Positions 21,219 through 42,702 of a stretch of DNA of 64,000 bases are shown piece after piece. The notes under the pieces are model-generated. The model made no database searches. It had not been told where the DNA came from and worked only from the letters and a program-made list of their open reading frames with translations. The first letter of the stretch is position 1. Every line of letters begins with the position of its first letter. The position numbers and the translations under genes were made by a program. Source of the DNA: Thraustochytrium sp. TN22 (Eukaryota > Sar > Bigyra > Thraustochytrida > Thraustochytriidae); NCBI GenBank assembly GCA_013306675.1, contig JABLUY010000010.1:186001-250000 (forward strand). Reading direction: 5' to 3'.

Positions 21219-21249
<31 letters not shown>

Positions 21250-23301: not shown

Positions 23302-24756
23302 ATGGTGGGGGCTGAGGACTCCGCGTCCACCACTTCGTCGATCTCGTCCACGACCCAGGACGATATGGACCTGCACCAGCAGGAGCAGCACCAGCAGGAG
23401 CAACCGCCGCAGACACCCGTACAGGCGGCGATGGAGATGGTGGGCAACGCGGATCGGCAACTGCTGGTGCGCAAGGTGGATGAGGACCTGGCCCCGGCTG
23501 CTGGCAGCGGCGAGCCGGACGTGGCGGCAGCTGTCGCGGTGCGACCGGCCGAGCGCGAGGGAACCTCGTTCCGCAAAGAGCACCGCAAGGAGCGCAAGGC
23601 GGAGCGGGAGGAGCAGCGGCCGGGCGCGATGCTGGCGGCGCTGGTCGTGGTGGTGGCGCTCTTGCAGGCGAACTTCTGGCTGGTGGAGTACCCGCGGCAC
23701 GTGGACGAGCCGGCGCGTAGCGGCGTGGGCGTCATCCCCTTCTCGACCATGCTCATCACCGTGTACGCTGTGGCACAGTTCGTGGACGAGGCGGCGGGCC
23801 GATGGCCGCGCGTCGTGGCACTGTCTGCAGAGAAGCGCAAGAAGTTCACGGTGCACGCTATGGAGATTGTGTGGGGGTCGGTAATTCTTGGACTTGTTAT
23901 GGCCGTCACAGTGCGCATCTTCGTCTTCAACTACCCGGAGGGCTGCTCGGTCGATGAGTATGTGATGCTGGAGGCCTACGTGCCGACGCAGGTGGTGACG
24001 CGCGTGGACACGCTCCCGGAGAGCGTCCTGGGCCTGCCGGTGGTAAACCCGGGCACCAAGGTGATGGAGGTGAGCGCCGAGGAGGCGGAGCGCATGCAGG
24101 TGCTGGCCAACAGCTGCATCGCTGCCAACAAGTACTGGATGGAGGCCACCTTCGCCGCCATCATGGCTCTCTACGTGTGGGAGATGGCGGCTCTCGGCAA
24201 GTTTATCCGCCTCAGTCTGCTAACGCACCACCTCTTCGTCTTCGCCATGCTCTTCACGTACCTGGCCTTCCCGCAGGGCTCGGTGAGCGGCCTGCTCGCC
24301 TTCGTGCAGACTTTTTTCGCCGGCCTGGAGCACCCGACGTTCATCGCTCTCGTCTTCTACCGCCTCTCGGCCAATACGCGCCTGCAGGCGCGCCTCTTTC
24401 TGGTTGGGGCAGCTTGCTTCGGCGTGCTCAAGGGCATCGCTGTCGTGCTCACGGTTGTCATGCTCTTGCGCTACGACCACGAGGTACCGGGGCTCTTTAC
24501 GGGTATCTGGGCGCTCTTCACCGCCATCGGCGCGCTGTCGCAGGCCTACTCGACCTACGCGCAGTACATGATCGCCGCCAACATCTCGCGCAAGGCCCGC
24601 AAGGCGCGTCACGCGCACCAGGAGCTCGTCAAGGCGCGCCGCCCCACGCTCAGCTGCAGTGACTCGGACTCGGGCTCTGGCTCCGGTGCAAGCTCCACCG
24701 ACGGCGCCTCGGACTCGGGCGACAGCGACGGTCCCTTTGCCATCACCATGGTCTGA
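23302..24756 (+). CDS. TLC-like multi-pass membrane protein, cluster gene A
   Basis: First of nine paralogues. 484 residues: a 100-residue acidic/Gln-rich N-terminal region, then the shared core. TM1 is followed by QANFWLVEYPRHVDEPARSG. Further on are LSAEKRKKFTVHAMEIVWG and a soluble loop bracketed by two cysteines (EGCSVDEY ... LANSCIAANKYW) and containing GLPVVNPGTKVMEVS. Then come WEMAALGKFIRLSLLTHHLF and GLEHPTFIALVFYRL. This TM order, the HH pair and the EHPTF-type motif resemble TLC-domain (TLCD/TMEM56) proteins, which act in membrane-lipid homeostasis; the exact function is unknown. The C-terminal tail is basic and then Ser/Asp/Gly-rich. Start ATG 23302 has a GCCATGG context. The 3' end of this gene was copied into the junction at 28941. 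Confidence 0.75.
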   Translation: MVGAEDSASTTSSISSTTQDDMDLHQQEQHQQEQPPQTPVQAAMEMVGNADRQLLVRKVDEDLAPAAGSGEPDVAAAVAVRPAEREGTSFRKEHRKERKAEREEQRPGAMLAALVVVVALLQANFWLVEYPRHVDEPARSGVGVIPFSTMLITVYAVAQFVDEAAGRWPRVVALSAEKRKKFTVHAMEIVWGSVILGLVMAVTVRIFVFNYPEGCSVDEYVMLEAYVPTQVVTRVDTLPESVLGLPVVNPGTKVMEVSAEEAERMQVLANSCIAANKYWMEATFAAIMALYVWEMAALGKFIRLSLLTHHLFVFAMLFTYLAFPQGSVSGLLAFVQTFFAGLEHPTFIALVFYRLSANTRLQARLFLVGAACFGVLKGIAVVLTVVMLLRYDHEVPGLFTGIWALFTAIGALSQAYSTYAQYMIAANISRKARKARHAHQELVKARRPTLSCSDSDSGSGSGASSTDGASDSGDSDGPFAITMV

Positions 24757-25219
24757 AGCAAGAGCACAAGCACGAACAAAAGATGAAGCGCCTGGCACCG
24801 GCAGCCCGCGCATGATGAGACCGACTCTGCCTCGCCTCACAAGTAAGATGATTTAGCCGGCCAACAACGTCCGAGTCCTGTACTACGAATTTTCTCTCTT
24901 TCGTGATTTTGTTGGGAGAACCTCCCGGCCCGGCCAGGCGTGCGTGTGCCCACGTGACTGGTACTCACGACAACGGCGGCCGACCGGGAATGGAGGAGAA
25001 CCAGGAGAACTCCGCGCGCGGACCGCGCGGGCCCGCGCGGCGAAGTCTAGCAGTCTAGCTTCAGAGCGCTTCAGAGCGCTCTAGACCAGGAGAGCGCCGG
25101 AGAAGCGCGCGGCGCGGCCACGCGGCCACGGCTGGCTGGCCGGCAGACCCTGAATCCACCACCGCGTTAGCCCGCGGGGCGTGGCCAAGGTGGATCCAGA
25201 GACGAACCCCAGGCGCGCG
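24757..25219. other. Region between A and B1 with small inverted repeats
   Basis: 3' UTR of A and promoter of B1. Notable: a GC-palindromic patch (GCGCGGACCGCGCGGG..., about 25014-25040) and, at 25053-25086, GTCTAG ... CTAGAC flanking two tandem TTCAGAGCGC units. The same structure is repeated before B2 (about 29281-29314). No gene seen. Confidence 0.5.
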
Positions 25220-26374
25220 ATGCCGCGCAGCTGCTGGCCGTCGCTTAAGCTCGTGGCGTCGGGCGTGGTCGTGGCCCTGGTACAGGCCAACTTCTGGGCT
25301 GTGGAGTACCCACGCCACCTCGTGGAGCCAGCTCGCAGCGGCCTTGACTTGGTGCCGCTCGTGACCATGATGCTCACGTTGCATATGTTTGCGCAGGTGG
25401 CGGAGGAGCACGTCAGCCAACCGCCGCCCGACGGTTTGCGCTTCAGGCACAATCACATCATCCACGGAGTCTCTACGACTTGGGGAACGCTAGCTCTCGC
25501 TGCTGCTGCAACGCTCATGGTACTCACCTTCACCCTCGGGTATCCGGTGGGCTGCTCGAAGGGTGCCGAGTCCTACGTCATGCTGGATGCCTACGTGCCC
25601 TTGCAGCCCGTCACGTTCACGCTCCGAAGCTGGGAGAAGATTCCCGAGACCTGGCACGGTCTGCCTGTAGTGGATGGACGCGTCAAGGTGATGGAGGTAA
25701 GCAGCGAGGAGAGAACGCGCATAAAGGCCCTGGCGTCCAGCTGCGTCGGCGCTAACCTGTACTGGATCGAGATGAGCGCCTGCGCTGTCCTTGCCTTTTA
25801 CGTGTGGGAGATGGCGGTCTTGGGCAATCTCATCCGCCCCAGCGTGCTCGCGCATCGCCTGCTCTTCTTCGCCATGGTCTTCCTTTACCGGGCTTTCCCG
25901 CAGAGCTCGATCAGCGCGGCGCTGGTGTGCTTGCAGACCTTTTCCGCGAGCGTGGAGTTGTCCGACCCCGGAACCCCTGACAATTGCCGCCACGCGGGGG
26001 TCGTGCGCGACAGGCCGTGCGCCTCCATCATCATTCTGGCCGGCCTCGCCACTGCCGAGCTGCTCACTCTTACTTTTGCGCTGGCCCTTCTCGTGGACTT
26101 TAACGACAAGCTGCCGATCGCCTTCACGGCCATGTGGGCGTCTCTGACAACGCTGAGTGCGCTCGTGCGGGCCTCCGGCATGTACACGCGCTACAAGCAC
26201 GCGCGAACGGCCCGCCTCGCGCGGATCGATGCCGCCTGTCCGGATCCCAACTCGAGCGACGCAAAGTCGTGCGCATCCTCCGTCTCGGAGGACTCACTTC
26301 CCAGCGATACTGGCTTCGAGATTGCCTCGGACGCTGACGAGAAGACCGCGGCCGCATGTGTCACCGCGGTCTAA
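25220..26374 (+). CDS. TLC-like multi-pass membrane protein, cluster gene B1
   Basis: 384 residues, starting straight at TM1 (MPRSCWPSLKLVASG), followed by QANFWAVEYPRHLVEPARSG. The Cys-bracketed loop is present (GYPVGCSKGAES ... LASSCVGANLYW) with GLPVVDGRVKVMEVS. The position equivalent to the His pair of genes A, D and E reads LAHRLLF, so the second His is replaced. The following EQPTFIALVLYRL motif is also lost, replaced by a Cys/Arg-containing segment (DPGTPDNCRHAG). A C-terminal TM and a basic, then Ser/Asp-rich tail remain. B1 is therefore a divergent paralogue, perhaps with altered or lost activity. The first ATG is at 25220; further upstream the frame opens with a GTG. It is nearly identical to B2. 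Confidence 0.72.
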   Translation: MPRSCWPSLKLVASGVVVALVQANFWAVEYPRHLVEPARSGLDLVPLVTMMLTLHMFAQVAEEHVSQPPPDGLRFRHNHIIHGVSTTWGTLALAAAATLMVLTFTLGYPVGCSKGAESYVMLDAYVPLQPVTFTLRSWEKIPETWHGLPVVDGRVKVMEVSSEERTRIKALASSCVGANLYWIEMSACAVLAFYVWEMAVLGNLIRPSVLAHRLLFFAMVFLYRAFPQSSISAALVCLQTFSASVELSDPGTPDNCRHAGVVRDRPCASIIILAGLATAELLTLTFALALLVDFNDKLPIAFTAMWASLTTLSALVRASGMYTRYKHARTARLARIDAACPDPNSSDAKSCASSVSEDSLPSDTGFEIASDADEKTAAACVTAV

Positions 26375-27293
26375 GCTCAGGAGCGAGTCGGAGGTGGCAT
26401 TCGCCATCACACCTGGTGTCGCCCGTCTGCACGTTCCTTACACAAATGCCTCCGCCTCGTGTCTTTCGAGGTCGAAGTGTAGATGAACCAAGAGAGAAGA
26501 AAAATCATCACCTCTCTGCTGCTACATCTTGCCAATGCGATGCGTTTTGGGAAGAATTGGTGCTTGCACCACGTCTGCCGCATTCTTCACGTGAATTGAT
26601 GTTCCCCGCGCGCCTGGGCTTCTGGCAGCGTCTCCTGATCTCCAGGGTCTACGTCCGCCCGGCTTCGGCAGCTCGAAACCTTCTTGACAAGGGCTGGACA
26701 GGCACGGGAAGCACGAAGCAACTTGAGTCATTAATTTAAAAAAAGCGAGGTCTCGACTGGGACGGACACCGTTGGTTGCCGTGGTTCTCACCGTGAAATT
26801 TGCTGCGAAAGCGCCTCTCATCGACATTCAGTTTGCTTCAGCGTGTTGCCAGTGTTGCCAAGTCGGGGGCCAGGCTCGCGTCACGGTCAGCCCGCCCGCA
26901 AGCTCGCGTCAGCCCAGTCTCGGACTGACTGCCAGTGTGTGGCTCGATCGTGATCCGAGGCGGTCCGAGTCCGAGTCGTCGGTTGGCGCCGGCCGCGGGC
27001 CGGCCGGGCTGGACCGACTTCGCCGCCGTCAAGTCGATTCCTCGCCCGCCTGTCAGGCTCTGACAGTGACAGAGAGCAAACCGTTCTCCCGCCTCGCGGC
27101 CGGGCGCGGCGGCGGGCGCGAGCCCTGCGGCGGCCCTGCGCCGCATCCCAGGAGAACGCAGGAGAACGTGCGGCCAGTCAAACTACTCGCGGCCGGCAAG
27201 TCCAAAACCAAACCAAGCAGACTCCCAACGACCGGCGGCGGCAAGGCGCGGCTGGTGGCGCGCCCTCGGATCCGAGTCCTCGGCGGCACGAGG
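26375..27293. other. Region between B1 and C1
   Basis: 3' UTR of B1 and a long upstream region of C1. The C1 frame stays open back to 26772 but contains no ATG before 27294, so this part is treated as non-coding. Features: TTAATTTAAAAAAA near 26731, a candidate AT-rich core promoter or terminator, and GAGTCCGAGTCGTCGG near 26966. The whole segment is repeated at 30603-31521 with only a few differences seen. Confidence 0.5.
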
Positions 27294-28502
27294 ATGGAGA
27301 CGGACTTGGCTGCGAACCGCGCGAGGCCGGCCTCGGGCGAGCACCCGGAGGAGCACCCCGAGGAGCACCCGGAGGAAGACCCCGAGGAGGACCCCGAGGA
27401 GAACCCTGACGAGCAGTTGATGTGCCCGACGTACATGCTCGTGGCGCTGGGCATCGTCGTGGCCCTGCTACAAGTCAATTTCTGGGCCGTAGAGTATCCG
27501 CGCCGCCTCGCGGAGCCAGCTCGCAGCGGCTTCGGTTTTGTTCCGCTCGTGACCATGGTCGTCACCATGTACGCGTTCGCGCAGCTCTTAGAGATAAGAA
27601 TCATTCGTCGCCACCCTCTCGCCCGGGAGATTCTGAAGGAGAAGGTATGGAAGAGGTACCTTGCCGACAAGACTGGAGAAGCCTGGGGCATCGTATGTGT
27701 TGTTCTTATCATAGGGGCCATGCTACGCGCCATAACATTCTCTCTCCTAGGCCAAGAGGAGTGCTCGACTAGTGATTCGTCCTTTGTCATGCTGGATGCC
27801 TACGTGCCCGTACAGCCCGCAACGCGATGGGACGAATACGACAGTACTAAACGCAGGTGGGAGGTGGTGGACGCGGGCATTCCGGTGATGAAGGTAAGCG
27901 ACGAGGAGAGCACGCGCATGGACACGCTGGCCTCCAGCTGTTTCGGTCTTAACATGTACTGGATCGAAGTCAGCTTCAACGGCATCGTGGCGTTTTACAT
28001 GTGGGAGATGGCTGTACTCGGCAACTTCATCCGTCCCAGCGTCTTCGCGCATCGCATGGTCTTCTTCACCATGGTCTTCATGTATTTGGCCTTTCCAAGG
28101 AGCTCGATCAGTGCTTTGCTGATTTGCATACAAGGCATATCGGCGAGCATGGATTTAGACACCTTCGTCGACGATGAAAGCCTCGCGGTTACGTGTATAC
28201 CGTTCATGATCGAGCTGAGCGCGCACGCTGGGGGAGCCTTCAGCCTTGTGTACACTCACGACGAGGTGCCGGGGCTCTTCACGGCGGTTTGGGCGTCTCT
28301 GGCAGCTCTGAGCGTGCTGTTGTCGGCGCGGTTCAAGCACTTACTGCGATTCAAGCACGCATACGGGGGTCTCCAGGCGCTCGAATCTCGATGCCCAGAC
28401 TCCAGTGGGGGCGACTCAGAGTCGTGCGCCTCTGACGCGGAGTCGTGCGCCTCTGACGCGGAGTCGTGCGCTTCTGACGCGGAGTCGTGCGCATCTGTGT
28501 AG
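27294..28502 (+). CDS. TLC-like multi-pass membrane protein, cluster gene C1
   Basis: 402 residues. The N-terminus has a short repeat of EHPEEHPEEDPEEDPEE type, then TM1 (MLVALGIVVALLQVNFWAVE) and the shared PRRLAEPARSG. The Cys-bracketed loop is kept (EECSTSDSS ... LASSCFGLNMYW), but the GLPVVNPG core is replaced by VVDAGIPVMKVS. The His pair reads FAHRMVF, and the EQPTF motif is gone (SMDLDTFVDDES). The C-terminus holds three full and one partial 21-bp repeats (28429-28499) encoding ESCASDA units. Start ATG 27294 gives a length like the other paralogues. Differences from C2 concentrate between about 27750 and 28400. Function unknown. Confidence 0.7.
   Translation: METDLAANRARPASGEHPEEHPEEHPEEDPEEDPEENPDEQLMCPTYMLVALGIVVALLQVNFWAVEYPRRLAEPARSGFGFVPLVTMVVTMYAFAQLLEIRIIRRHPLAREILKEKVWKRYLADKTGEAWGIVCVVLIIGAMLRAITFSLLGQEECSTSDSSFVMLDAYVPVQPATRWDEYDSTKRRWEVVDAGIPVMKVSDEESTRMDTLASSCFGLNMYWIEVSFNGIVAFYMWEMAVLGNFIRPSVFAHRMVFFTMVFMYLAFPRSSISALLICIQGISASMDLDTFVDDESLAVTCIPFMIELSAHAGGAFSLVYTHDEVPGLFTAVWASLAALSVLLSARFKHLLRFKHAYGGLQALESRCPDSSGGDSESCASDAESCASDAESCASDAESCASV
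28429..28499 (+). repeat. 21-bp tandem repeat encoding ESCASDA
   Basis: Three complete units and one partial unit at the C-terminus of C1, each adding one cysteine and two acidic residues. The same array is in C2 at 32657-32727. Confidence 0.9.
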
Positions 28503-29447
28503 CAGCCCTGACATTGAGTCCGCGCGTCCGACGCTTTGGTCTTTGACACGAAGTACAGCCGAGGATTGATGAAGAAAGGTTGCTGGCGTAGCCGATCCAG
28601 AGTCTTCTGCTGTTGAAAACTGCCGACACGACGTCCGTCCCAGGGCTCTTGGGTTGTTTGCGCCTCATTGAGTCTCGTTGGGCGAAGCACCGGCCGGGCA
28701 GGAGAGAGGCGGAGCTTCGTTTCGTAGATGGCGCATCAAGAAGAAGAATATTTCATCAATCACCACTCACTTCAAGCACGCAGACTGGTCATCAGAACTT
28801 CTTGCCACGTTGCAGGTCACCACCATCAGTTTCACGAGCCAGCAGGGTGGACGTCCTTGGAGTCGCCACGCGCCCGCGTGGCCTTGCGGTGCGCTCGGAG
28901 GCCATGCTTGGACATGACGAGCTGCGCCTGCACCGAGTACGCCTCGGACTCGGGCGACAGCGACGGTCCCTTTGCCATCACATGGTCTGAAGCAAGAGCA
29001 CAAGCACGAACAAAAGATGAAGCGCCTGTCACCGGCAGCCCGCGCATGATGAGACTGACTCTGCCTCACTTTTTCCAGCTGGCAGGTAAGATGATTTAGC
29101 CGGCCAACAACTACGAATTTTCTCTCTTTCGTGATTTGGTTGGGAGAACATCCCGGCCAGGCCAGGCGTGCGTGTGCCCACGTGACTGGTACTCACGACA
29201 ACGGCGGCCGACAGGGAATGGAGGAGAACCAGGAGAACTCCGCGCGCGGACCGCGCGGGCCCGCGCGGCGAAGTCTAGCAGTCTAGCTTCAGAGCGCTTC
29301 AGAGCGCTCTAGACCAGGAGAGCGCCGGAGAAGCGCGCGGCGCGGCCACGCGGCCACGGCTGGCTGGCCGGCAGACCCTGAATCCACCACCGCGTTAGCC
29401 CGCGGGGCGTGGCCAAGGTGGATCCGGAGACGAACCCCAGGCGCGCG
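28503..29447. other. Region between C1 and B2, containing the duplication junction
   Basis: 3' UTR of C1, then a truncated fragment of gene D (28832-28940, minus strand), the junction at 28940/28941, the last codons of gene A (28941-28990), and the promoter of B2 corresponding to 24757-25219. Confidence 0.7.
28832..28940 (-). pseudogene. Truncated 3' end of gene D at the duplication junction
   Basis: On the minus strand this segment encodes YSVQAQLVMSKHGLRAHRKA and the following residues to DSKDVHPAGS, matching the C-terminus of gene D (33068-34219). It has no 5' part: at 28941 it meets the 3' end of gene A in inverse orientation. It is a scar of the tandem duplication, not a gene. Confidence 0.85.
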
Positions 29448-30602
29448 ATGCCGCGCAGCTGCTGGCCGCCGCTTAAGCTCGTGGCGTCGGGCGTGGTCGT
29501 GACCCTGGTGCAGGCCAACTTCTGGGCTGTGGAGTACCCACGCCACCTCGTGGAGCCAGCTCGCAGCGGCCTTGACTTGGTGCCGCTCGTGACCATGATG
29601 CTCACGTTGCATATGTTTGCGCAGGTGGCGGAGGAGCACATCAGCCAACTGCCGCCCGACGGTTTGCGCTTCAGGCACAATCACGTCGTCCACGGAGTCT
29701 CCACGACTTGGGGAACGCTAGCTCTCGCTGCTGCTGCAACGCTCATGGTACTCACCTTCACCCTCGGGTATCCGGTGGGCTGCTCGAAGGGTGCCGAGTC
29801 CTACGTCATGCTGGATGCCTACGTGCCCTTGCAGCCCGTCACGTTCACGCTCCGAAGCTGGGAGAAGATTCCCGAGACCTGGCACGGTCTGCCTGTAGTG
29901 GATGGACGCGTCAAGGTGATGGAGGTAAGCAGCGAGGAGAGAACGCGCATAAAGGCCCTGGCGTCCAGCTGCGTCGGCGCTAACCTGTACTGGATCGAGA
30001 TGAGCGCCTGCGCTGTCCTTGCCTTTTACGTGTGGGAGATGGCGGTCTTGGGCAATCTCATCCGCCCCAGCGTGCTCGCGCATCGCCTGCTCTTCTTCGC
30101 CATGGTCTTCCTTTACCGGGCTTTCCCGCAGAGCTCGATCAGCGCGGCGCTGGTGTGCTTGCAGACCTTTTCCGCGAGCGTGGAGTTGTCCGACCCCGGA
30201 ACCCCTGACAATTGCCGCCACGCGGGGGTCGTGCGCGACAGGCCGTGCGCCTCCATCATCATTCTGGCCGGCCTCGCCACTGCCGAGCTGCTCACTCTTA
30301 CTTTTGCGCTGGCCCTTCTCGTGGACTTTAACGACAAGCTGCCGATCGCCTTCACGGCCATGTGGGCGTCTCTGACAACGCTGAGTGCGCTCGTGCGGGC
30401 CTCCGGCATGTACACGCGCTACAAGCACGCGCGAACGGCCCGCCTCGCGCGGATCGATGCCGCCTGTCCGGATCCCAACTCGAGCGACGCAAAGTCGTGC
30501 GCATCCTCCGTCTCGGAGGACTCACTTCCCAGCGATACTGGCTTCGAGATTGCCTCGGACGCTGACGAGAAGACCGCGGCCGCATGTGTCACCGCGGTCT
30601 AA
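29448..30602 (+). CDS. TLC-like multi-pass membrane protein, cluster gene B2
   Basis: 384 residues, nearly identical to B1. Visible differences are confined to the first third: PPLKL for PSLKL, VVVTLVQ for VVVALVQ, EHISQLPP for EHVSQPPP and HNHVVHG for HNHIIHG. From the Cys-bracketed loop to the stop I see no amino-acid change. It shares B1's lost His pair (LAHRLLF) and lost EQPTF motif. Retention of an uninterrupted frame in both copies suggests recent duplication, ongoing gene conversion, or selection; sequence alone cannot separate these. Confidence 0.72.
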   Translation: MPRSCWPPLKLVASGVVVTLVQANFWAVEYPRHLVEPARSGLDLVPLVTMMLTLHMFAQVAEEHISQLPPDGLRFRHNHVVHGVSTTWGTLALAAAATLMVLTFTLGYPVGCSKGAESYVMLDAYVPLQPVTFTLRSWEKIPETWHGLPVVDGRVKVMEVSSEERTRIKALASSCVGANLYWIEMSACAVLAFYVWEMAVLGNLIRPSVLAHRLLFFAMVFLYRAFPQSSISAALVCLQTFSASVELSDPGTPDNCRHAGVVRDRPCASIIILAGLATAELLTLTFALALLVDFNDKLPIAFTAMWASLTTLSALVRASGMYTRYKHARTARLARIDAACPDPNSSDAKSCASSVSEDSLPSDTGFEIASDADEKTAAACVTAV

Positions 30603-31521
30603 GCTCAGGAGCGAGTCGGAGGTGGCATTCGCCATCACACCTGGTGTCGCCCGTCTGCACGTTCCTTACACAAATGCCTCCGCCTCGTGTCTTTCGAGGT
30701 CGAAGTGTAGATGAACCAAGAGAGAAGAAAAATCATCACCTCTCTGCTGCTACATCTTGCCAATGCGATGCGTTTTGGGAAGAATTGGTGCTTGCACCAC
30801 GTCTGCCGCATTCTTCACGTGAATTGATGTTCCCCGCGCGCCTGGGCTTCTGGCAGCGTCTCCTGATCTCCAGGGTCTACGTCCGCCCGGCTTCGGCAGC
30901 TCGAAACCTTCTTGACAAGGGCTGGACAGGCACGGGAAGCACGAAGCAACTTGAGTCATTAATTTAAAAAAAGCGAGGTCTCGACTGGGACGGACACCGT
31001 TGGTTGCCGTGGTTCTCACCGTGAAATTTGCTGCGAAAGCGCCTCTCATCGACATTCAGTTTGCTTCAGCGTGTTGCCAGTGTTGCCAAGTCGGGGGCCA
31101 GGCTCGCGTCACGGTCAGCCCGCCCGCAAGCTCGCGTCAGCCCAGTCTCGGACTGACTGCCAGTGTGTGGCTCGATCGTGATCCGAGGCGGTCCGAGTCC
31201 GAGTCGTCGGTTGGCGCCGGCCGCGGGCCGGCCGGGCTGGACCGACTTCGCCGCCGTCAAGTCGATTCCTCGCCAGCCTGTCAGGCTCTGACAGTGACAG
31301 AGAGCAAACCGTTCTCCCGCATAGCGGCCGGGCGCGGCGGCGGGCGCGAGCCCTGCGGCGGCCCTGCGCCGCATCCCAGGAGAACGCAGGAGAACGTGCG
31401 GCCAGTCAAACTACTCGCGGCCGGCAAGTCCAAAACCAAACCAAGCAGACTCCCAACGACCGGCGGCGGCAAGGCGCGGCTGGTGGCGCGCCCTCGGATC
31501 CGAGTCCTCGGCGGCACGAGG
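30603..31521. other. Region between B2 and C2
   Basis: Copy of 26375-27293, differing at a few positions near 31274-31323. No gene seen beyond the flanking ones. Confidence 0.5.
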
Positions 31522-32730
31522 ATGGAGACGGACTTGGCTGCGAACCGCGCGAGGCCGGCCTCGGGCGAGCACCCGGAGGAGCACCCCGAGGAGCACCCGG
31601 AGGAAGACCCCGAGGAGGACCCCGAGGAGAACCCTGACGAGCAGTTGATGTGCCCGACGTACATGCTCGTGGCGCTGGGCATCGTCGTGGCCCTGCTACA
31701 AGTCAATTTCTGGGCCGTAGAGTATCCGCGCCGCCTCGCGGAGCCAGCTCGCAGCGGCTTCGGTTTTGTTCCGCTCGTGACCATGGTCGTCACCATGTAC
31801 GCGTTCGCGCAGCTCTTAGAGATAAGAATCATTCGTCGCCACCCTCTCGCCCGGGAGATTCTGAAGGAGAAGGTATGGAAGAGGTACCTTGCCGACAAGA
31901 CTGGAGAAGCCTGGGGCATCGTATGTGTTGTTCTTATCATAGGGGCCATGCTACGCGCCATAACATTCTCTCTCCTAGGCCTAGAGGAGTGCTCGACTAG
32001 TGATTCGTCCTTTGTCATGCTGGATGCCTACGTGCCCGTACAGCCCGCAACGCGATGGGACGGATACGACAGAACTTATCGCAGGCGGGAAGTGGTGGAC
32101 GCGGGCATTCGGGTGATGAAGGTAAGCGACGAGGAGAGCACGCGCATGGACACGCTGGTCTCCAGCTGTTTGGGTCTTAACATGTACTGGATCGAAGTCA
32201 GCGTCAACGGCATCGTGGCGTTTTTCATGTGGGAGATGGCTGTACTTGGCAACTTCATCCGTCCCAGCGTCTTCGCGCATCGCATGGTCTTCTTCACCAT
32301 GGTCTTCATGTATTTGGCCTTTCCAAGGAGCTCGATCAGTGCTTTGCTGATTTGCATACAAGGCATATCGGCAAGCGTGGATTTAAACCCCTTCGTCGAC
32401 GATGAAAGCCTCGCGGAAACGTGTCTACAATTCATGTTCGAGCTGATCGCGCACGCTGGGGGAGCCTTCAGCCTTGTGTACACTCACGACGAGGTGCCGG
32501 GGCTCTTCACGGCGGTTTGGGCGTCTCTGGCAGCTCTGAGCGTGCTGTTGTCGGCGCGGTTCAAGCACTTAATGCGATTCAAGCACGCATGCGGGGGTCT
32601 CCAGGCGCTCGAATCTCGATGCCCAGACCCCAGTGGGAGCGATTCAGAGTCGTGCGCCTCTGACGCGGAGTCGTGCGCCTCTGACGCGGAGTCGTGCGCT
32701 TCTGACGCGGAGTCGTGCGCATCTGTGTAG
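31522..32730 (+). CDS. TLC-like multi-pass membrane protein, cluster gene C2
   Basis: 402 residues, paralogue of C1. The first 150 residues (acidic repeat, TM1, TM2 and most of TM3) look identical to C1. The Cys-bracketed loop and following part differ at many positions: WDGYDRTYRRREVVDAGIRV against WDEYDSTKRRWEVVDAGIPV, SSCLGLNMYWIEVSVNG against SSCFGLNMYWIEVSFNG, and VDLNPFVDDESLAETCLQF against MDLDTFVDDESLAVTCIPF. The His position again reads FAHRMVF. The 21-bp ESCASDA repeats are retained (32657-32727). Function unknown. Confidence 0.7.
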   Translation: METDLAANRARPASGEHPEEHPEEHPEEDPEEDPEENPDEQLMCPTYMLVALGIVVALLQVNFWAVEYPRRLAEPARSGFGFVPLVTMVVTMYAFAQLLEIRIIRRHPLAREILKEKVWKRYLADKTGEAWGIVCVVLIIGAMLRAITFSLLGLEECSTSDSSFVMLDAYVPVQPATRWDGYDRTYRRREVVDAGIRVMKVSDEESTRMDTLVSSCLGLNMYWIEVSVNGIVAFFMWEMAVLGNFIRPSVFAHRMVFFTMVFMYLAFPRSSISALLICIQGISASVDLNPFVDDESLAETCLQFMFELIAHAGGAFSLVYTHDEVPGLFTAVWASLAALSVLLSARFKHLMRFKHACGGLQALESRCPDPSGSDSESCASDAESCASDAESCASDAESCASV

Positions 32731-33067
32731 CAGCCCTGACATTGAGTCCGCGCGTCCGACGCTTTGGTCTTTGGCGCGAAGCACAGCCGAGGATTGATGA
32801 AGCAAAGTTGCTGGCGTAGCCGATCCAGAGTCTTCTGCTGTTGAAAACTGCCGACACGAGGTCCGTCCCAGGGCTGTTGGAGTGTTTGCGCCTCACTGAG
32901 TCTTGTTGGGCGAAGCACCGACCTTGGGCAAGACCTCGTGGGCAGGAGAGAGGCGGAGCTTCGTTTCGTAGATGGCGCATCAAGAAGAAGAATATTTCAT
33001 CAAGCACCACTCACTACAAGCACGCAGACTGAATCAGAACTTCTTGCCACGTTGCAGGTCACCACCA
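32731..33067. other. Convergent intergenic region between C2 (+) and D (-)
   Basis: The 3' ends of C2 and D face each other here, separated by about 340 bases. The sequence corresponds to 28503-28831 of copy 1 with an extra GACCTTGGGCAAGACCTCGT-type segment near 32921. No gene. Confidence 0.5.
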
Positions 33068-34219: not shown

Positions 34220-35548
34220 CCAGTTTGTCAGCCAACTTGAACGCGACGCGGCCTTGGCCCGTGCTCGCTCTTCGCGTTGTGCTTGCGGTTTTGCTTGCCT
34301 GCGGTTCTCGCCGCCGGATTGCTTGCGGCCTTGCTTGCGGTTCTCGCGGCCGGACCGCCGGCCAGCCGGGCCAGGGTCTCGGTCCCCGGCCGCGCAGCCT
34401 GCCCTGCCAGCAGCAGTTTGGCAGGCAATCAATGAATTATGAATGTGAGCGGTCCGCCTGCATACCTGCCTGCCAATGGCGAGCCGGGCCGGGCCGGGGA
34501 GGTGGGCGTCCTCGTCCGGCCGGGTTGACGCCGCGAGCGCCGACTCGACGACCCGCGCGTGGCGCGCCGAGGCGACCTTGAAGCGAAGCCCGGGTGCTGC
34601 TCCAGGCCGCTCCTGGCCAACGCGCAGCGCGGAGCGCGCTGGGCGAGCTTCGTGCCAGGAGGGAGGAGGACGGACGGCTTGCGACGGCCCGGCCTGCCAC
34701 TGCCGGGAAGTGCGTGTCGCGCCGACGCGCCGCCGGGTAATTATGTCAGTGATGATGAGTTGAGCAGGCTGGCCGAAAACAGAGCGCGCGCGCAGAGAGC
34801 CCGAGCAACTTCGGAGCAAGGAAAGCCTGGCTGCGAGCGGGGACCCCCGGTTCAGACCCATCGGCCACGGACAGAATCTAAGTTACTGTGCTACAACAGA
34901 GTAATACAGACCGTAGAGTACGAGTCGAGCCCGGGCCAGCTTTGCAGCCGCACGTCGCGGCGCGCGGCGGACTCGGACGGGGGCTAAGTTAGCGGACACT
35001 GTCCATCATCGGCGGTGGCACAATGGGCTCAGGAGGTACAGGTCGCGCTGCGAGTGCAGGTGGCACGCTGGCACGGCACGACACTTGCTCGGGGCTTGCG
35101 AGCGTCGTGCCGTCACTGGCAGGGCGGCTGCCTGCCTGCCTGCCAGTGAGACCTTCTTCGCGGCGTTCATGCCGGCGATCCGACGGGCGTACAGGGCGGG
35201 CCGCCCGGTGTGGTGGCGATACCGTCCACGATTGTGGCCTACGCAGCTGCGCTGGCCAGCGCGGCCTTCGCTGGCCTGCGCCGGCGCGCGCCGGCTTGCG
35301 CCGGCCTGTGCCGGCCTCCGCGTTTCCGGGGTGCGCGCCTCGCTTGCGTGATAAATGAAACCCACACCGTGACTGCGCCCCCTCTCCATACTGCAGTGAA
35401 TCCGCACCCCTCGCAGCCCGGCGCGTCAATGGCGCTAGCGAGAGGTCCACACAAAGCTGTGAGGCCAGAGCCAGGCAGACACCAAACGCTCTGGGTCTAC
35501 GTGGACGTAGAGTCGGTGATCGCGATTGCATTGGCATCGCTCGTCATC
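34220..35548. other. Divergent promoter region between D (-) and E1 (+)
   Basis: From about 34405 this is the left part of the 3-kb E unit; the same sequence precedes E2 (37395-38662) and E3 (40578-41577) with indels. It contains GAAGCGAAGCCCGGGTGCTG and neighbouring conserved blocks, the inverted repeat at 35113-35149, and CACCAAACGCTCTGGGT-type sequence just before the E start. No gene seen. Confidence 0.55.
35113..35149. repeat. Inverted repeat TCACTGGCAGG / CCTGCCAGTGA before E1
   Basis: A perfect 11-bp inverted repeat: arms at 35113-35123 and 35139-35149 with a 15-base spacer. The E2 unit keeps both arms unchanged but with a 34-base spacer (38178-38233). It lies about 400 bases before the E1 start codon. 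Confidence 0.7.
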
Positions 35549-36673
35549 ATGCCCGAGTCGGAGTCGAGCTTCCGGGCGATGGTGCTGACCGGGAAGCCGA
35601 TAGGGCAGCGGCCCGCGTCGGTGTTCGCGACGCTGAGCGTGGTGTTCGTGCTGGTGCAGGTGAACTTCTGGCTGGTGGAGTTTCCGCGGCACCTGCAGGA
35701 CAGGCTACACAACGGGCTGGGCCCGGCCATGTTCACGATGGTGCTGGTGACAGCATACGTCGTGGTGACCTTCTTGGACGCCTGGCTGGACACGCTGCCG
35801 CGCGCGCGGGCGCTAGCAACGGAGAAGCGTCGCAAGCTGCTGGTGCACTGCTGGGAGCTCTTGTGGGGCACGATGCTGCTCGTCATCATGCTGGCGGGCG
35901 TGCTGCGCGCCTTCGTGCTGGAACTGCCGACCGGGTGCGACTCGAGCCTGTTCTCGTTGAGCGAGTACATTTACCCGACGTACGCGACGCGCGCGGTGAA
36001 CTTCCCGGCAACGGTGGACGGGCTGCCTGTGGTGAACCCAGGCACTGAGGTGCTGGAAGTGAGCCTGGAGGACGCGGTGAAGTTGGGCATGATGGAGGAC
36101 TCGTGCCTGGCGGCGAACCGCTACGTGCTGGAGATTGGCGCGACCTTCACGCTAGTCATGTACTTTTGGGAGCTCTTCTACCTGATGGGCGACGTGCGCG
36201 CCAGCCTGCAGATGCACCACCTGACGGTGGTGATTCTGTACCACGCGTGGCTGGCGTTCCCGCCGAGCACGCTGACGTCGCTGCTGGCCATCATTCAGTT
36301 CTTCTTTGCGGCCACGGAGCAGCCGACCTTCATCGCCCTGGTATTGTACAGGCTGACGGACGACAAGGTGCGGCAGCGGCGCTGGTTCATTGCGGGTGCC
36401 GTGAGCTTTGCAGTGTGCAAGGTCGCGGCGCTCATCATCACACTGGTGCTCATGGCAGAGCACAGTGAGGAGCTGCCCCCCAAGTACGCACCGATTTGGC
36501 TCTTCTTTGTGATTGGCGGTCTTCTGGCGCAGATGTACTCGGTGTACGCGCAGTGCGCCATGGCCAGCCGGCTCGGCCGTGAGCTGGCACAGGACCACAA
36601 GACGGACTCGAGCTCAGCGGGGTCCGACGACTTTGAAACGACGGCGCAAAGCAAAGCAATTCAGCAGGTGTGA
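35549..36673 (+). CDS. TLC-like multi-pass membrane protein, cluster gene E1
   Basis: 374 residues. MPESESSFRAMVLTGKPIG leads into TM1, then VQVNFWLVEFPRHLQDRLHN, ATEKRRKLLVHCWELLWG, the Cys-bracketed loop (TGCDSSLFSLSEY ... MMEDSCLAANRYV) with GLPVVNPGTEVLEVS, FWELFYLMGDVRASLQMHHL (intact His pair), ATEQPTFIALVLYRLTDDK, two further TMs and a Ser/Asp tail. The TM order, the HH pair and the TEQPTF motif after it match the TLCD-type TLC domain. Start: ATG 35549 is the first Met conserved in all three E copies. Upstream readings conserved in E1 and E3 are out of frame in E2, and the ATG at 35429 occurs only in E1. The 3' end of the gene is partly re-duplicated downstream (about 36707-36827). Confidence 0.78.
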   Translation: MPESESSFRAMVLTGKPIGQRPASVFATLSVVFVLVQVNFWLVEFPRHLQDRLHNGLGPAMFTMVLVTAYVVVTFLDAWLDTLPRARALATEKRRKLLVHCWELLWGTMLLVIMLAGVLRAFVLELPTGCDSSLFSLSEYIYPTYATRAVNFPATVDGLPVVNPGTEVLEVSLEDAVKLGMMEDSCLAANRYVLEIGATFTLVMYFWELFYLMGDVRASLQMHHLTVVILYHAWLAFPPSTLTSLLAIIQFFFAATEQPTFIALVLYRLTDDKVRQRRWFIAGAVSFAVCKVAALIITLVLMAEHSEELPPKYAPIWLFFVIGGLLAQMYSVYAQCAMASRLGRELAQDHKTDSSSAGSDDFETTAQSKAIQQV

Positions 36674-37095
36674 GCAAGAACGCATGCATGCACGCGCTCT
36701 TGAAGGTGTCTGCGCGCGTGCGCAATTGCCAATCGCGAGCTGGCAAGGAACCACAAGACGGACCCGAGCTCAGCGGGGTCCGATGAGTTTGAGGGCGACG
36801 GCGCAGAGCCAAGCAATTCAGCAGGTGTGGGCGAGAATGGATGCACGCACGCACTCTTGAATAACATGCGCGCTCGCACTCTCAAAAAGATACATGCGCG
36901 CACGCACTCCCGAAGAAACATGCACGCACGCACTCTCGAAGAGTGTTTTTGAAGAAACGCTTTTCCCAAGTTTGGACCTGCGCCCACACCGAAAGGCTCT
37001 GTGCACTGCAATGGCTATTTTTACTTGGTTTCTAAATATACGACGTGACCACTCCCGCTTCTTCCTTCTATGCATGTGCGCGTCGGCGCGAACTT
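36674..37095. other. 3' region of E1: duplicated gene tail and minisatellite
   Basis: 36707-36827 repeats the last 40 or so codons of E1 (ending CAATTCAGCAGGTGTG). From about 36845 to 36955 comes a minisatellite of roughly 28-bp units containing ATGCGCGCACGCACTCTC. Then follows the 3' flank of the aldolase fragment (37000-37095), which is homologous to 42915-43021 beside the intact aldolase gene. Confidence 0.7.
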
Positions 37096-37394
37096 GACTT
37101 GGTTGGAGTAGTCCTTCTTGTAGGTGGAGGTGTTGGCAGGGGCTCCACCAGCGGCCTTGCCGGAGTACTTGCCGAGCTGGGCCAGGCCGTTGGCCTTGGT
37201 GCGGAGGAGCAGGGCCTGCTGGGCAGCCTCAATCTGGACGTCCCTGCCCTTCCACTCCTTGAGCACGGTGGCCTGGAGGGCGCGGCCGTAGGAGAAGGAG
37301 AGGTTCCAGGGCTTCTTGCCCTCGGCGTGGTTGAGCTCGTTGAGGGCGAGCTCGTTGAGAGCAATGGTGGCCTCCTCCTCGGACATGCCGCCCG
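37096..37394 (-). pseudogene. Aldolase 3' fragment 1
   Basis: On the minus strand this encodes about the last 95 codons of class I aldolase (MSEEEATIALNEL, WNLSFSYGRALQATVLKEWK, AQLGKYSGKAAGG). Compared with the intact gene it has a 12-bp tandem insertion giving NELALNELN, substitutions such as KGRDVQ for KGEDAQ, and a changed stop codon so the frame reads through. The 5' three-quarters of the gene is absent: homology stops at 37394, exactly where fragment 2 also stops. A leftover of unit duplication; not expected to function. Confidence 0.88.
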
Positions 37395-38177: not shown

Positions 38178-38233
38178 TCACTGGCAGGGCTCAGGCTGGC
38201 AAGTCATGTGGTGGCCTGCCTGCCTGCCAGTGA
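38178..38233. repeat. Inverted repeat TCACTGGCAGG / CCTGCCAGTGA before E2
   Basis: Perfect 11-bp arms at 38178-38188 and 38223-38233 with a 34-base spacer. The spacer is 19 bases longer than at the E1 copy while both arms are unchanged. Confidence 0.7.
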
Positions 38234-38662
38234 GACCTTCTTCGCGGCGTTCATGCCGGCGATTCCACGGGCGTAGAGGGCGGGCCGCCCGGTGTGGTGG
38301 CGATGCCCTATTTCGTACCGTCCACGATTGTGGCCTGCGCAGCTGCGCTGGCCAGCGCGGCCTTCGCTGGCCTGCGCCGGCGCGCGCCGGCCTGCGTCGG
38401 TCTCCGCGTTTCCGGGGTGCGCGCCGCGCTGGCGTGATAAATGAAGGCTACCTGCTGGCTGGTACCCGCACTGCGCCCCCTCTCCATAATGAAGGCAGTG
38501 ATTCTGCACCCCTTGAAGCCCCGCGTTGTTGACGCTACTAGCTAGCGAGAGGGCCACACGGAGGCAAGCTGAGGCCAGAGCCAGGCAGACACCAAACGCT
38601 CTGGGTTCTACGTGGTAACGTCAGTAATCCCGATTGGCATTGCTTGGGCATCGCTCGTCATC

Positions 38663-39793
38663 ATGCCGGAGTCGGAGTCGGAGTCGAGCTTCCGGGCGAT
38701 GGTGCTGACCGGGAAGCCGATAGGGCAGCGGCCCGCGTCGGTGTTCGCGACGCTGAGCGTAGTGTTCGTGCTGGTACAGGTGAACTTCTGGCTGGTGGAG
38801 TTTCCGCGGCACCTGCAGGACAGGCTACACAACGGGCTGGGCCCGGCCATGTTCACGATGGTCCTGGTGACAGCATACGTCGTGGTGACCTTCTTGGACG
38901 CCTGGCTGGACACGCTGCCGCGCGCGCGGGCGCTAGCAACGGAGAAGCGCCGCAAGCTGCTGGTGCACTGCTGGGAGCTCTTGTGGGGCACGATGCTGCT
39001 CGTCATCATGCTGGCGGGCGTGCTGCGCGCCTTCGTGCTGGAACTGCCGACCGGGTGCGACCCGAGCCTGTTCTCGTTGAGCGAGTACATTTACCCGACG
39101 TACGCGACGCGCGCGGTGAACCTCCCGGCAACGGTGGACGGGCTGCCTGTGGTGAACCCAGGCACCGAGGTGCTGGAAGTGAGCCTGGAGGACGCGGTGA
39201 AGTTGGGCAGGATGGAGCACTCATGCCTGGCGGCGAACCGCTACGTGATCGAAATTGGCGCGTCCTTCACGCTAGCCATGTACTTTTGGGAGCTCTTCTA
39301 CCTGATGGGCGACGTGCGCGCCAGCCTGCAGATGCACCACCTGACGGTGGTGATTCTGTACCACGCGTGGCTGGCGTTCCCGCCGAGCACGCTGACGTCG
39401 CTGCTGGCCATCATTCAGTTCTTCTTTGCGGCCACGGAGCAGCCGACCTTCATCGCCCTGGTATTGTACAGGCTGACGGACGACAAGGTGCGGCAGCGGC
39501 GCTGGTTCATTGCGGGTGCCGTGAGCTTTGCAGTGTGCAAGGTCGCGGCGCTCATCATCACACTGGTGCTCATGGCAGAGCACAGTGAGGAGCTGCCCCC
39601 CAAGTACGCACCGATTTGGCTCTTCTTTGTGATTGGCGGTCTTCTGGCGCAGATGTACTCGGTGTACGCGCAGTGCGCCATGGCCAGCCGGCTCGGCCGT
39701 GAGCTGGCACAGGACCACAAGACGGACTCGAGCTCAGCGGGGTCCGACGACTTTGAAACGACGGCGCAAAGCAAAGCAATTCAGCAGGTGTGA
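38663..39793 (+). CDS. TLC-like multi-pass membrane protein, cluster gene E2
   Basis: 376 residues, a near copy of E1. Visible differences: an extra ES pair at the N-terminus (MPESESESSFRA), DPSLF for DSSLF, VNLPATV for VNFPATV, LGRMEHSCLAANRYVIEIGA for LGMMEDSCLAANRYVLEIGA, and SFTLAMYF for TFTLVMYF. All core motifs are intact, including the His pair (MHHLTVV) and TEQPTFIALV. From about residue 230 to the stop I see no amino-acid difference from E1. Start is the conserved ATG 38663; the longer frame begins with a GTG. Role as for E1. Confidence 0.78.
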   Translation: MPESESESSFRAMVLTGKPIGQRPASVFATLSVVFVLVQVNFWLVEFPRHLQDRLHNGLGPAMFTMVLVTAYVVVTFLDAWLDTLPRARALATEKRRKLLVHCWELLWGTMLLVIMLAGVLRAFVLELPTGCDPSLFSLSEYIYPTYATRAVNLPATVDGLPVVNPGTEVLEVSLEDAVKLGRMEHSCLAANRYVIEIGASFTLAMYFWELFYLMGDVRASLQMHHLTVVILYHAWLAFPPSTLTSLLAIIQFFFAATEQPTFIALVLYRLTDDKVRQRRWFIAGAVSFAVCKVAALIITLVLMAEHSEELPPKYAPIWLFFVIGGLLAQMYSVYAQCAMASRLGRELAQDHKTDSSSAGSDDFETTAQSKAIQQV

Positions 39794-40292
39794 GCGAGAA
39801 TGCAAGCACGCACGCAGCGAGAATGCAAGCACGCACGCACTCTTAAAGATGTCTGCGCGCAGTGCGCAATGGCCAGCCGGCTCGGCCGCGAGCTGGCAAG
39901 GGACCACAAGACGGACCCGAGCTCAGCGGGTTCGATGAGTTGGAGACGACGGCGCAGAGCCAAGCAATTCAGCAGGTGTGAGCAAGAATGCATGCACGCA
40001 CGCACTCTTGAAATGATACATGCGCGCTCGCACACTCAAAAAGATACATGTGCGCACGCACTCTCAAAAAGATACATCCGCGCACGCACTCACGAAGATG
40101 CGCACGTTATCAGAAGACAACCTGTCATTGTGCTGCAGTGGCTTTCAATAAGAGCTTCCCCCAAGTTTGGACCCGCCAGTTCGATTGTGCCCACATCGAA
40201 AGTCTCTGTGCACTGCAATGGCTATTTTTTTTAAATAAGATACGATGTGACCACTCCCGCTTCTTCCTTGCATGTGCGCGTCGGCGCGAACT
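39794..40292. other. 3' region of E2: duplicated gene tail and minisatellite
   Basis: 39860-39981 repeats the last 40 codons of E2, ending in CAGCAGGTGTGAGC. About 39990-40105 holds three or four minisatellite units containing GATACATGCGCGC / ACGCACTCTCAAAAA. Then aldolase 3' flank homology up to the fragment at 40293. Confidence 0.7.
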
Positions 40293-40577
40293 TAACTTAG
40301 TTGGAGTAGTTCTTCTGGGAGGTGGAGGTGTTGGCAGCGGCTCCACCAGCGGCCTCGCCGGAGCACTTGCCGAGCTGGGCCAGGCCGTTGGTCTTGGAGC
40401 GGAGGAGCAGGGCGTGCTGGGCAGCCTCAATCTGGGCGTCCCCACCCTTCCACTCCTTGAGCACGGTGGCCTGGAGGGCGCGGCCGTAGGAGATGGAGAG
40501 GTTCCAGGGCTTCTTGCCCTCGGCGCGGTTGAGCTCGTTGAGGGCAATGGTGGCCTCCTCCTCTGACATGCCGCTCG
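40293..40577 (-). pseudogene. Aldolase 3' fragment 2
   Basis: On the minus strand it encodes about 93 C-terminal codons of aldolase (ATIALNELNRAEGKKPWNLS, AQLGKCSGEAAGGAAANTS, KNYSN then a stop). The stop codon position is retained but the final Tyr, important for catalysis in class I aldolases, is Asn. Homology ends at the same aldolase position as fragment 1, so both derive from one recombination breakpoint. Confidence 0.88.
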
Positions 40578-41577
40578 GGGCCAGTTGCAGTTTGGCAGGC
40601 AATGTGTGTGAGTGCAGCCGCGTGCAGCCGGACAGCGCGGTCCGCCTGCCTACCAATGGCGAGCCGGTGCCTTGTCCGGGTTGACGCCGCAAGCGCCGAC
40701 TCCGACTCGACGACCCGCGCGTAGCTACTAACATGTAAGACCAAGGCCAAGGCCAAGGTCAAAGCCGAGGCGCGCCAAGGCGAAGCGAAGCTCGCGAGCT
40801 CTGGTGCTGCCTGCTCCAGGCCGCTCTTGGCCAACGCGCAGCGCGGAGAGGCTGAGCGAGCTTCATGCCAGGAGGGGAAGAGGACGGCTTGCGACGGCCC
40901 GGCCTGCCGGGAAGTGTGTGTCGCGCTGACGCGCCGCGGAGTCTGACATTGACAGTGAGACTCGAGTGAGTTGAGCAGGCTGGCCGAAAACAGCCTGAGA
41001 GCGCGCGCGCAGAGAGCCCGAGCAAGGAAACCCGATTCAGACGCTGCAGCAGTGCAGCGCGCTGTCGAAGGCGCAACACTCATCGGACAGAATCTATCTT
41101 ACAAACCACTCCAAACGGACGGCCCCGCTGCCCACCTTCAAGTCGAGCCAGCTTTGCAGTGCACGTCACGGCGCGCGACGGAGGCTAACTGTAAGTTAGC
41201 GGAAACTGTCATCATCGGCGGTGGCATAACGAGGAGGGACTGGTCTCGATCTACTACCAGCAAGTTCGCACTACCTGCACCGTGACCGTCCTCGGACTCG
41301 GACAACTCGCCGTGTCCTGGAGGTTACTCGTCGGTTTGGTCGAAACGGGCGCTGATTCTTCCGAGTCCCGGGCCGAGGCGGAAGCGCTGCGCTTTCTGGA
41401 CACTGCGGCCCCTCTCCATACCTCAGTGAATCTGCACCCCTTGCAGCCCCGCGTCATCGACGCTAGCGCGAGGCCCACACAGAGCCGCCAGTGCAGTGGC
41501 CAGGCAGACACCAAACGCTCTGGGTCTACGTGGACGTAGAGTCGGTAATCCCGATTGCTTTGGCATCGCTCGCCATC

Positions 41578-42702
41578 ATGCCGGAGTCGGCGTCGAGCTT
41601 CCGGGCGATGGTGCTGACCGGGAAGCCGATAGGGCAGCGGCCCGCGTCGGTGTTCGCGACGCTGAGCGTAGTGTTCGTGCTTGTGCAGGTGAACTTCTGG
41701 CTGGTGGAGTTTCCGCGGCACCTGCAGGACAGGCTACACAACGGGCTGGGCCCGGCCATGTTCACGATGGTGCTGGTGACAGCATACGTCGTGGTGACCT
41801 TCTTGGACGCCTGGCTGGACACGCTGCCGCGCGCGCGGGCGCTAGCAACGGAGAAACGCCGCAAGCTGCTGGTGCACTGCTGGGAGCTCTTGTGGGGCAC
41901 GATGCTGCTCGTCATCATGCTGGCGGGCGTGCTGCGCGCCTTTGTGCTGGAACTGCCGACCGGGTGCGACCCGAGCCTGTTCTCGTTGAGCGAGTACATT
42001 TACCCGACGTACGCGACGCGCGCGGTGAACCTCCCGGCAACGGTGGACGGGCTGCCTGTGGTGAACCCAGGCACCGAGGTGCTGGAAGTGAGCCTGGAGG
42101 ACGCGGTGAAGTTGGGCAGGATGGAGGACTCGTGCCTGGGTGCGAACCGCTACGTGCTGGAGATTGGCGCGACCTTCACGCTAGCCATGTACTTTTGGGA
42201 GCTCTTCTACCTGATGGGCGACGTGCGCGCCAGCCTGCAGATGCACCACCTGACGGTGGTGATTCTGTACCACGCGTGGCTGGCGTTCCCGCCGAGCACG
42301 CTTACGTCGCTGCTGGCCATCATTCAGTTCTTCTTTGCGGCCACGGAGCAGCCGACCTTCATCGCCCTGGTATTGTACAGGCTGACGGACGACAAGGTGC
42401 GGCAGCGGCGCTGGTTCATTGCGGGCGCCGTGAGCTTTGCAGTGTGCAAGGTCACGGCGCTCATCATCACACTGGTGCTCATGGCAGAGCACAGTGAGGA
42501 GCTGCCCCCCAAGTACGCACCGATTTGGCTCTTCTTTGTGATTGGCGGTCTTCTGGCGCAGATGTACTCGGTGTACGCGCAGTGCGCCATGGCCAGCCGG
42601 CTCGGCCGCGAGCTGGCACGGGACCACAAGACGGACTCGAGCTCAACGGGGTCCGATGAGCCTGAGACGACGGCGCAGAGCCAAGCAACCCAGCAGGTGT
42701 GA
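41578..42702 (+). CDS. TLC-like multi-pass membrane protein, cluster gene E3
   Basis: 374 residues, near copy of E1 and E2. It carries MPESASSFRAMVLTGKPIG, the shared core, LGRMEDSCLGANRYVLEIGA, MHHLTVV and TEQPTFIALV. Differences include VCKVTALII for VCKVAALII and a tail with SSSTGSDEPETTAQSQATQQ. It lacks the downstream re-duplicated tail of E1 and E2. The stop at 42702 faces the stop of the intact aldolase at 43022 across a 320-base convergent region. Start is the conserved ATG 41578; the longer frame starts with a GTG. Confidence 0.78.
   Translation: MPESASSFRAMVLTGKPIGQRPASVFATLSVVFVLVQVNFWLVEFPRHLQDRLHNGLGPAMFTMVLVTAYVVVTFLDAWLDTLPRARALATEKRRKLLVHCWELLWGTMLLVIMLAGVLRAFVLELPTGCDPSLFSLSEYIYPTYATRAVNLPATVDGLPVVNPGTEVLEVSLEDAVKLGRMEDSCLGANRYVLEIGATFTLAMYFWELFYLMGDVRASLQMHHLTVVILYHAWLAFPPSTLTSLLAIIQFFFAATEQPTFIALVLYRLTDDKVRQRRWFIAGAVSFAVCKVTALIITLVLMAEHSEELPPKYAPIWLFFVIGGLLAQMYSVYAQCAMASRLGRELARDHKTDSSSTGSDEPETTAQSQATQQV

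Follow-up and report, generated by a model that had tools for sequence, protein, structure and literature searches.

Nine homologous open frames (A, B1, C1, B2, C2, D, E1, E2 and E3) at 23302-42702 of a 64,000-nucleotide stretch of Thraustochytrium sp. TN22 DNA (positions 186,001 to 250,000 of contig JABLUY010000010.1; the window, here meaning that whole stretch) appear, on balance, to be a locally multiplied and very divergent branch of the TLC (TRAM-LAG1-CLN8) family, with A, D and E1-E3 as acyl-CoA-dependent acyltransferases. The window lies on contig C11, in a eukaryotic assembly that totals 37.9 Mb in 453 contigs. A sequence-only reading of the window had placed nine related membrane protein genes here, and this was borne out: the alignment of the trimmed cores contains 40 invariant columns, and the A core, used as a tblastn query, found the other eight genes with 36-43% identity (E 5e-61 or better). 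D shares just 42-44% identity with A and E1-E3, and the E1-E3 cores are 96.7-98.1% identical at the protein level. Because B1 and C1 recur as B2 and C2 in a block copy and E1-E3 are near-identical, the array holds five distinct gene types.

The assignment to the TLC family, also proposed by the sequence-only reading, was supported by profile-profile comparison with TLC genes of the same genome. A genome search with PF03798, the Pfam TRAM_LAG1_CLN8 model, yielded 11 genes above the cut-off, each on a contig of its own and none in the array. When these 11 genes were compared with the array by hhalign (E-values refer to a single pairwise comparison, not to a library search), the A/D/E profile scored 46.9 (E 6.1e-6, probability 85%), the profile of all nine 44.2 (E 2.1e-5) and the trimmed set A4 39.9 (E 7.3e-5); the control profiles gave 18-20 for ELO elongases (built from four of the five loci found), about 12 for fatty acid hydroxylase and 14-16 for HlyIII (control E-values 0.08-0.73). 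Shuffling the columns of the A/D/E profile (200 segment and 200 local shuffles, with columns permuted within hydrophobic/other runs or within blocks of eight) reached the observed score in 0/400 cases (maximum 32.1), and the maximum for all nine was 29.9 in 400. The ceramide synthase (CerS)-like and TLCD-like subsets of the TLC genes scored 47.5-50.7 against each other, and the distance from the array to the TLC genes is of the same order. Single E proteins scored 35-37 against the TLC profile; single TLC proteins scored 49-153 against the rest of their set, and four ELO and 14 fatty acid hydroxylase sequences taken singly scored 9.9-21.5. In a search of 1,244 open frames with a hidden Markov model (HMM) of the 11 TLC genes, E3, E2, E1 and A came next after the training sequences (E 2.7e-4, 0.0048, 0.0074 and 0.041, respectively). 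Taken together, A, D and E have a firm profile link to TLC, and a TLC relationship of these genes, considered by itself, is very probable. B and C, which alone score no higher than background against TLC, are tied to the family solely through their homology to A.

Fold searches pointed in the same direction. Two low-confidence AlphaFold models show eight long helices, where seven had been expected, the third and fourth being separated by an insert that is mostly coil; the second model was made with trimmed B/C rows, and its pLDDT (predicted local distance difference test) rose only from 62 to 64 while the PDB result became less clear. Foldseek searches of 350,542 PDB chains placed CerS6 at ranks 1 and 4 and TMEM120A at rank 2 with the first model, and designed proteins at ranks 1 and 2, CerS6 at rank 3 and TMEM120A at rank 38 with the second. 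In BFVD, seven of the best 50 of 145 matches of the first model were viral proteins whose names mark them as TLC-domain or TRAM/LAG1/CLN8 proteins, with TM-scores by target of at most 0.63, and the best row (E 0.018) carried no name. A barrel of six transmembrane helices (TMs) is a candidate fold, with CerS6 and viral TLC proteins high in these lists and no match at E <= 0.001; the structural check suggested with the sequence-only reading gave CerS6 among the top ranks with both models, but no significant E-value.

The motifs divide the array into intact and altered copies. QxNFWxVExPR is common to all nine proteins, as had been reported, with V in D at the position given as [YF]. The helix start EKRxKxxV[HY]xxExxWG, also ascribed to all nine, was found in five (A, D and E1-E3, with Y for H in D); in B and C, WG alone remains of it. 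The HH pair followed by an ExPTFIA....YRL-type segment is present in A, D and E1-E3 (5/9), as described before, but the first His lies 34 residues before the acid of ExPTF and not about 25. In these five proteins the pair falls in the third helix of the predicted barrel, a feature of PF03798 membership. B1, B2, C1 and C2 (4/9) have HR for HH and lack PTFIAL..YRL; when the TM6 region of B was read in three frames for a frameshift that might have broken it, a faint EPLTIAATR-like echo appeared in the +1 frame, with no clean shift, and C is shorter there. All nine proteins share two invariant cysteines in the TM3-TM4 insert.

A joint alignment with the 11 TLC genes put HH on HH, in agreement with the predicted active-site position, matched the WE acid with the Asp found in TLCD-like genes (a label given by eye), and set ExPTF by E-x-S-T-P-F and an array Lys on the TLC Arg. 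The acid before HH, counterpart of TLCD1 D98, is Glu in all nine array proteins; the aligned position in the TLC genes is Asp in eight, Glu in one and neither in two (L009 and L011). The acid in the helix after HH, at the place of TLCD1 E145 and CerS6 Asp242, is E in A, D, E1-E3 and B1/B2 and D in C1/C2, and lies within one or two columns of the TLC acid; in B and C no PTFIAL segment follows it. B and C keep the first His and the acids, and their second His is replaced by Arg.

In CerS6, which works by acyl-histidine ping-pong chemistry, the acyl group is borne by His211, the first of the two histidines; the second is essential, and Asp242 and Arg275 are part of the site (PMC11919693, in the part of its text used here and below). 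TLCD1 H117 acts like the first His of CerS6; the second step there depends on D98, and activity on E145 (PMC11838012, likewise in part). Since A, D and E1-E3 have the HH pair and both acids, and a Lys as well, acyl-CoA-dependent acyl transfer would be, by analogy, their most likely function. Each array protein may be built of two N-terminal helices followed by a six-helix TLC barrel (TM3-TM8), and the TM3-TM4 insert, some 60 residues long and holding the two invariant Cys, probably lies in the lumen of the endoplasmic reticulum or Golgi. The mechanism proposed for A, D and E1-E3 has the first His of HH (TM5) attacking acyl-CoA to form an acyl-histidine, and the W/T-E-[LM] acid (TM4), the ExPTF acid (TM6) and the TM7 Lys would place and activate the acceptor. 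A lysophospholipid or some other amphiphile is the probable acceptor. In B and C, enzyme function is probably impaired, judging from the HR pair and the broken TM6, and these copies may be pseudo-enzyme partners or genes in decay. Against such impairment stand L010 (HG) and L016 (HA), two of the 11 PF03798 genes, which also lack the second His; its loss thus occurs outside the array as well. A bolder version, which we regard as quite unlikely, makes the array a self-diversifying module: active A/D/E and HR pseudo-enzymes B/C would form mixed dimers with a disulfide-tied lumenal domain, and copy number and gene conversion would tune acyl chains or acceptors for a lineage-specific lipid.

Several results weigh against an array of TLC acyltransferases. 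In an hmmscan against Pfam, the direct test named with the sequence-only reading, none of the nine proteins matched PF03798 at E up to 10. Leave-one-out TLC sets gave hhalign scores of 29.9-57.3 for A/D/E and 30.4-44.2 for all nine; without L009 the A/D/E score fell inside the shuffle range, either TLC subset alone gave a weak 16.6-32.0, and single proteins scored 24 (A and D) or 14-19 (B and C). Bias corrections of 12-17 bits applied to the matches of the TLC HMM, which themselves carried few bits (9-16.5); B and C appeared at E 1.1-2.9 among unrelated frames, and D was absent up to E 10. The reverse search was weak, the nine-row HMM finding L009 at E 0.075 and the A/D/E HMM finding L014 at E 0.4. 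Both structure models are of low confidence (pLDDT 62.1 and 64.2; pTM, the predicted template modelling score, 0.51 and 0.55), no Foldseek match reached E <= 0.001 (best 0.37 for CerS6 and 0.018 in BFVD), and a designed protein tops the PDB ranking of the second model. Moreover, the Arg conserved in 11/11 TLC genes, which was matched to CerS6 Arg275 by its position near the last helices only, is Lys in A, D and E1-E3 and Glu in B/C, and CerS6 Arg275Lys keeps just about 20% activity (PMC11919693). The case for the TLC family rests on the agreement of the methods and on no single one of them.

The missing Pfam match, the weak Foldseek and reverse HMM E-values and the dependence of the score on the make-up of the TLC set would also fit an unrelated polytopic family that resembles TLC proteins in its histidine pair and spacing by chance, as would the sub-threshold similarity of E1-E3 to the Pfam model DMT_YdcZ (15 bits where the cut-off is 24; E 0.02-0.03); we consider this highly improbable, given that none of the 400 shuffles keeping local composition reached the score and three different methods point to TLC. 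It is also unlikely, though less easily set aside, that the proteins have the TLC fold and are not enzymes, serving instead as a scaffold in the membrane, a cargo receptor or a lipid sensor in which HH is retained for structural reasons. TRAM-type proteins have roles without known catalysis, which speaks for this, as do the Lys for Arg, the Glu in place of the Asp of the TLCD-like genes and the long open frames of the four copies without the second His; however, none of the two His, the two acids and the Lys varies among A, D and E1-E3 despite the low identity of D, which is an active-site pattern. Some other acyl-CoA six-TM barrel, on the ELOVL, HACD or TMEM120A side and not TLC proper, could be argued from the presence of TMEM120A in both PDB searches, from two viral elongases among the best 50 of 145 BFVD matches and from the CerS6 paper, which treats these families as six-TM barrels and in which the histidine pairs of ELOVL7 and CerS6 superpose (PMC11919693). 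Yet the elongase profile scored 18-20 against 40-47 for TLC, and by eye the alignment has no HxxHH-type box, so that there is very little chance of this being the right placement.

As to how the array formed, one tandem duplication copied a block made up of the 3' end of A, B, C and the 3' end of D (Table 1). Divergence between the block copies is uneven, with about 1.5 kb (~25500-27000) free of differences and 4-7% in the end bins, and therefore looks like gene conversion, which we consider probable. The identical tract might instead suggest an assembly artefact, two alleles having been placed in tandem, but the end bins differ, the junction of D and A 3' ends is definite and not readily produced by side-by-side alleles, and gene conversion accounts for the tract; such an artefact is very unlikely. 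B1 and B2 differ at nine bases, too few for an estimate of selection. C1 and C2 differ by 22 nonsynonymous and four synonymous changed codons, with a ratio of nonsynonymous to synonymous rates (dN/dS) of 1.05-1.29; positive selection on C was considered and is not claimed, as the ratio fits relaxed constraint and is confounded by gene conversion. Two duplications of E also copied a spacer and the final 91-96 codons of the adjoining class I aldolase gene, and the aldolase fragments between the E copies (86-88% identical) mark the duplication unit; the complete aldolase gene after E3 is the likely source of both. The dN/dS values (NG86) of the three pairs of E copies are 0.33, 0.31 and 0.26, differences are fewer in the coding part than in the flanks, and the E coding sequence is under constraint. 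Small extra copies of the E C-terminal tail lie right after E1 and E2 (36704-36949 and 39794-40231, plus strand). A repeated spacer (34448-34857) overlaps the first part of the D frame, which is probably not coding. C1 and C2 carry an acidic EEHPEEHPEEDPEED-like repeat ahead of TM1 and four SCAS(DAE) repeats at the C terminus.

Table 1. Genes of the array, their candidate catalytic sites and the traces of duplication (positions in the window).
Feature	Position	Strand	Details
Gene A	23302-24756	+	484 aa from ATG; HH 24226-24231; EHPTFIALVFYRL 24328-24366
Gene B1	25181-26374	+	397 aa from GTG; HR 25853-25858; TM6 motif lost
Gene C1, open frame	26772-28502	+	Conserved core from ~27384; HR 28050-28055; TM6 motif lost
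Gene B2	29409-30602	+	98.5% protein identity to B1; HR 30081-30086
Gene C2, open frame	31000-32730	+	Conserved core from ~31612; HR 32278-32283; TM6 motif lost
Gene D, open frame	33068-34861	-	Conserved core 33068-34135; HH 33497-33502; EQPTFIAMLLYRL 33362-33400
Gene E1, open frame	35210-36673	+	Conserved core from 35579; HH 36215-36220; EQPTFIALVLYRL 36317-36355
Gene E2, open frame	38612-39793	+	Conserved core from 38699; HH 39335-39340; EQPTFIALVLYRL 39437-39475
Gene E3, open frame	41491-42702	+	Conserved core from 41608; HH 42244-42249; EQPTFIALVLYRL 42346-42384
Gene E3, WE acid	42199-42201	+	
Gene E3, Lys aligned with TLC Arg	42448-42450	+	
4.25 kb block, copy 1	24693-28944		A 3' end, B1, C1, D 3' end
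4.25 kb block, copy 2	28928-33186		97.2% identical to copy 1
B-C duplication junction	28835-28982		D 3'-end remnant (28835-28960, minus) meets A 3'-end remnant (within 28893-28982, plus)
Class I aldolase 3' fragment	37105-37392	-	Residues 269-359 of 360; after E1
Second class I aldolase 3' fragment	40303-40590	-	Residues 264-359 of 360; after E2
Complete fructose-bisphosphate aldolase class I frame	43022-44917	-	360 aa from MGANKY; right border of array

A six-frame search of the genome with E3, D, A and B1 as queries, which scores the best candidates only and so gives a lower bound for the family, returned the nine genes and terminal scraps at the same locus, all else being at E 0.18 or worse. 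No relative of the array proteins was confirmed among viral contigs, prokaryote genome contigs or PDB sequences; two phage (Listeria) matches at E 0.2, covering 26% of the query, were taken as chance, and one PDB match at E 0.071 is an unrelated deacetylase. With at least 11 PF03798 genes and the nine of the array, this genome can be set beside a survey that counted 7-10 TLC genes in four algae, 6-20 in 21 angiosperms and 16 in mouse, with 6.8% of the angiosperm genes in local-duplication pairs (PMC6862079, in the part used here). By this one survey, the size of the local expansion is unusual for the family, as the sequence-only reading had held, and none of the papers listed in a literature search that covered few subscription journals described a comparable TLC array. 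Tandem arrangement is also seen elsewhere in this genome: four fatty acid hydroxylase (PF04116) matches, a second local array of lipid-enzyme-like genes, lie on one strand within 9.4 kb (G000:C229:24218-33615).

Elsewhere in the window, a WD40 protein frame with a polyglutamine run lies at 18577-21846, and a single long frame at 49720-55083 (minus strand) combines POR_N, flavodoxin and nitrite/sulphite reductase domains. In the same assembly, L038 (G000:C363:1-9900) is a mitochondrial contig with a match to small-subunit ribosomal RNA; judged by eye, it seems to be of a stramenopile type, and some of its frames resemble nad7, nad2 and ribosomal protein genes.

TLC proteins other than ceramide synthases have been reported as acyltransferases only recently (PMC11838012). 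A branch missed by Pfam suggests that TLC-type enzymes are undercounted in microbial eukaryotes, and the matched HH and HR copies are a natural variant set for probing the second histidine and the TM6 segment. Compared with known systems, the array proteins resemble the TLCD type (TLCD1/FLD-1, CLN8 and TLCD4, also TMEM56), as judged against the TLCD-like genes of this genome, in the HH pair, the acid before it in a WD/WE context, the T/P/F segment followed by an acid and the order of helices; they differ in having E for D, E-x-P-T-F for E-x-S-T-P-F and Lys for Arg, in carrying two helices ahead of the predicted barrel and an insert in which two Cys are invariant, and in being unseen by PF03798. 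With the ceramide synthases (CerS6, Lag1) they share the HH pair, aligned with that of the CerS-like genes, and CerS6 is the best-ranked natural protein in both PDB fold searches; the Lag1p-type D-x-x-D after HH, present in all three CerS-like genes elsewhere in the genome (L009, L011 and L012, labelled by eye), is replaced by [TL]E[QH]PTF in A, D and E. The TMEM120A and ELOVL barrels belong to the same six-TM class (PMC11919693) and occur in the Foldseek lists, whereas profile similarity to ELO elongases is no higher than background and their HxxHH was not seen by eye. What is new are the extra N-terminal helices and the two-Cys insert; the array itself is ordinary in origin and unusual in its size, its divergence and its mix of intact and HR copies.

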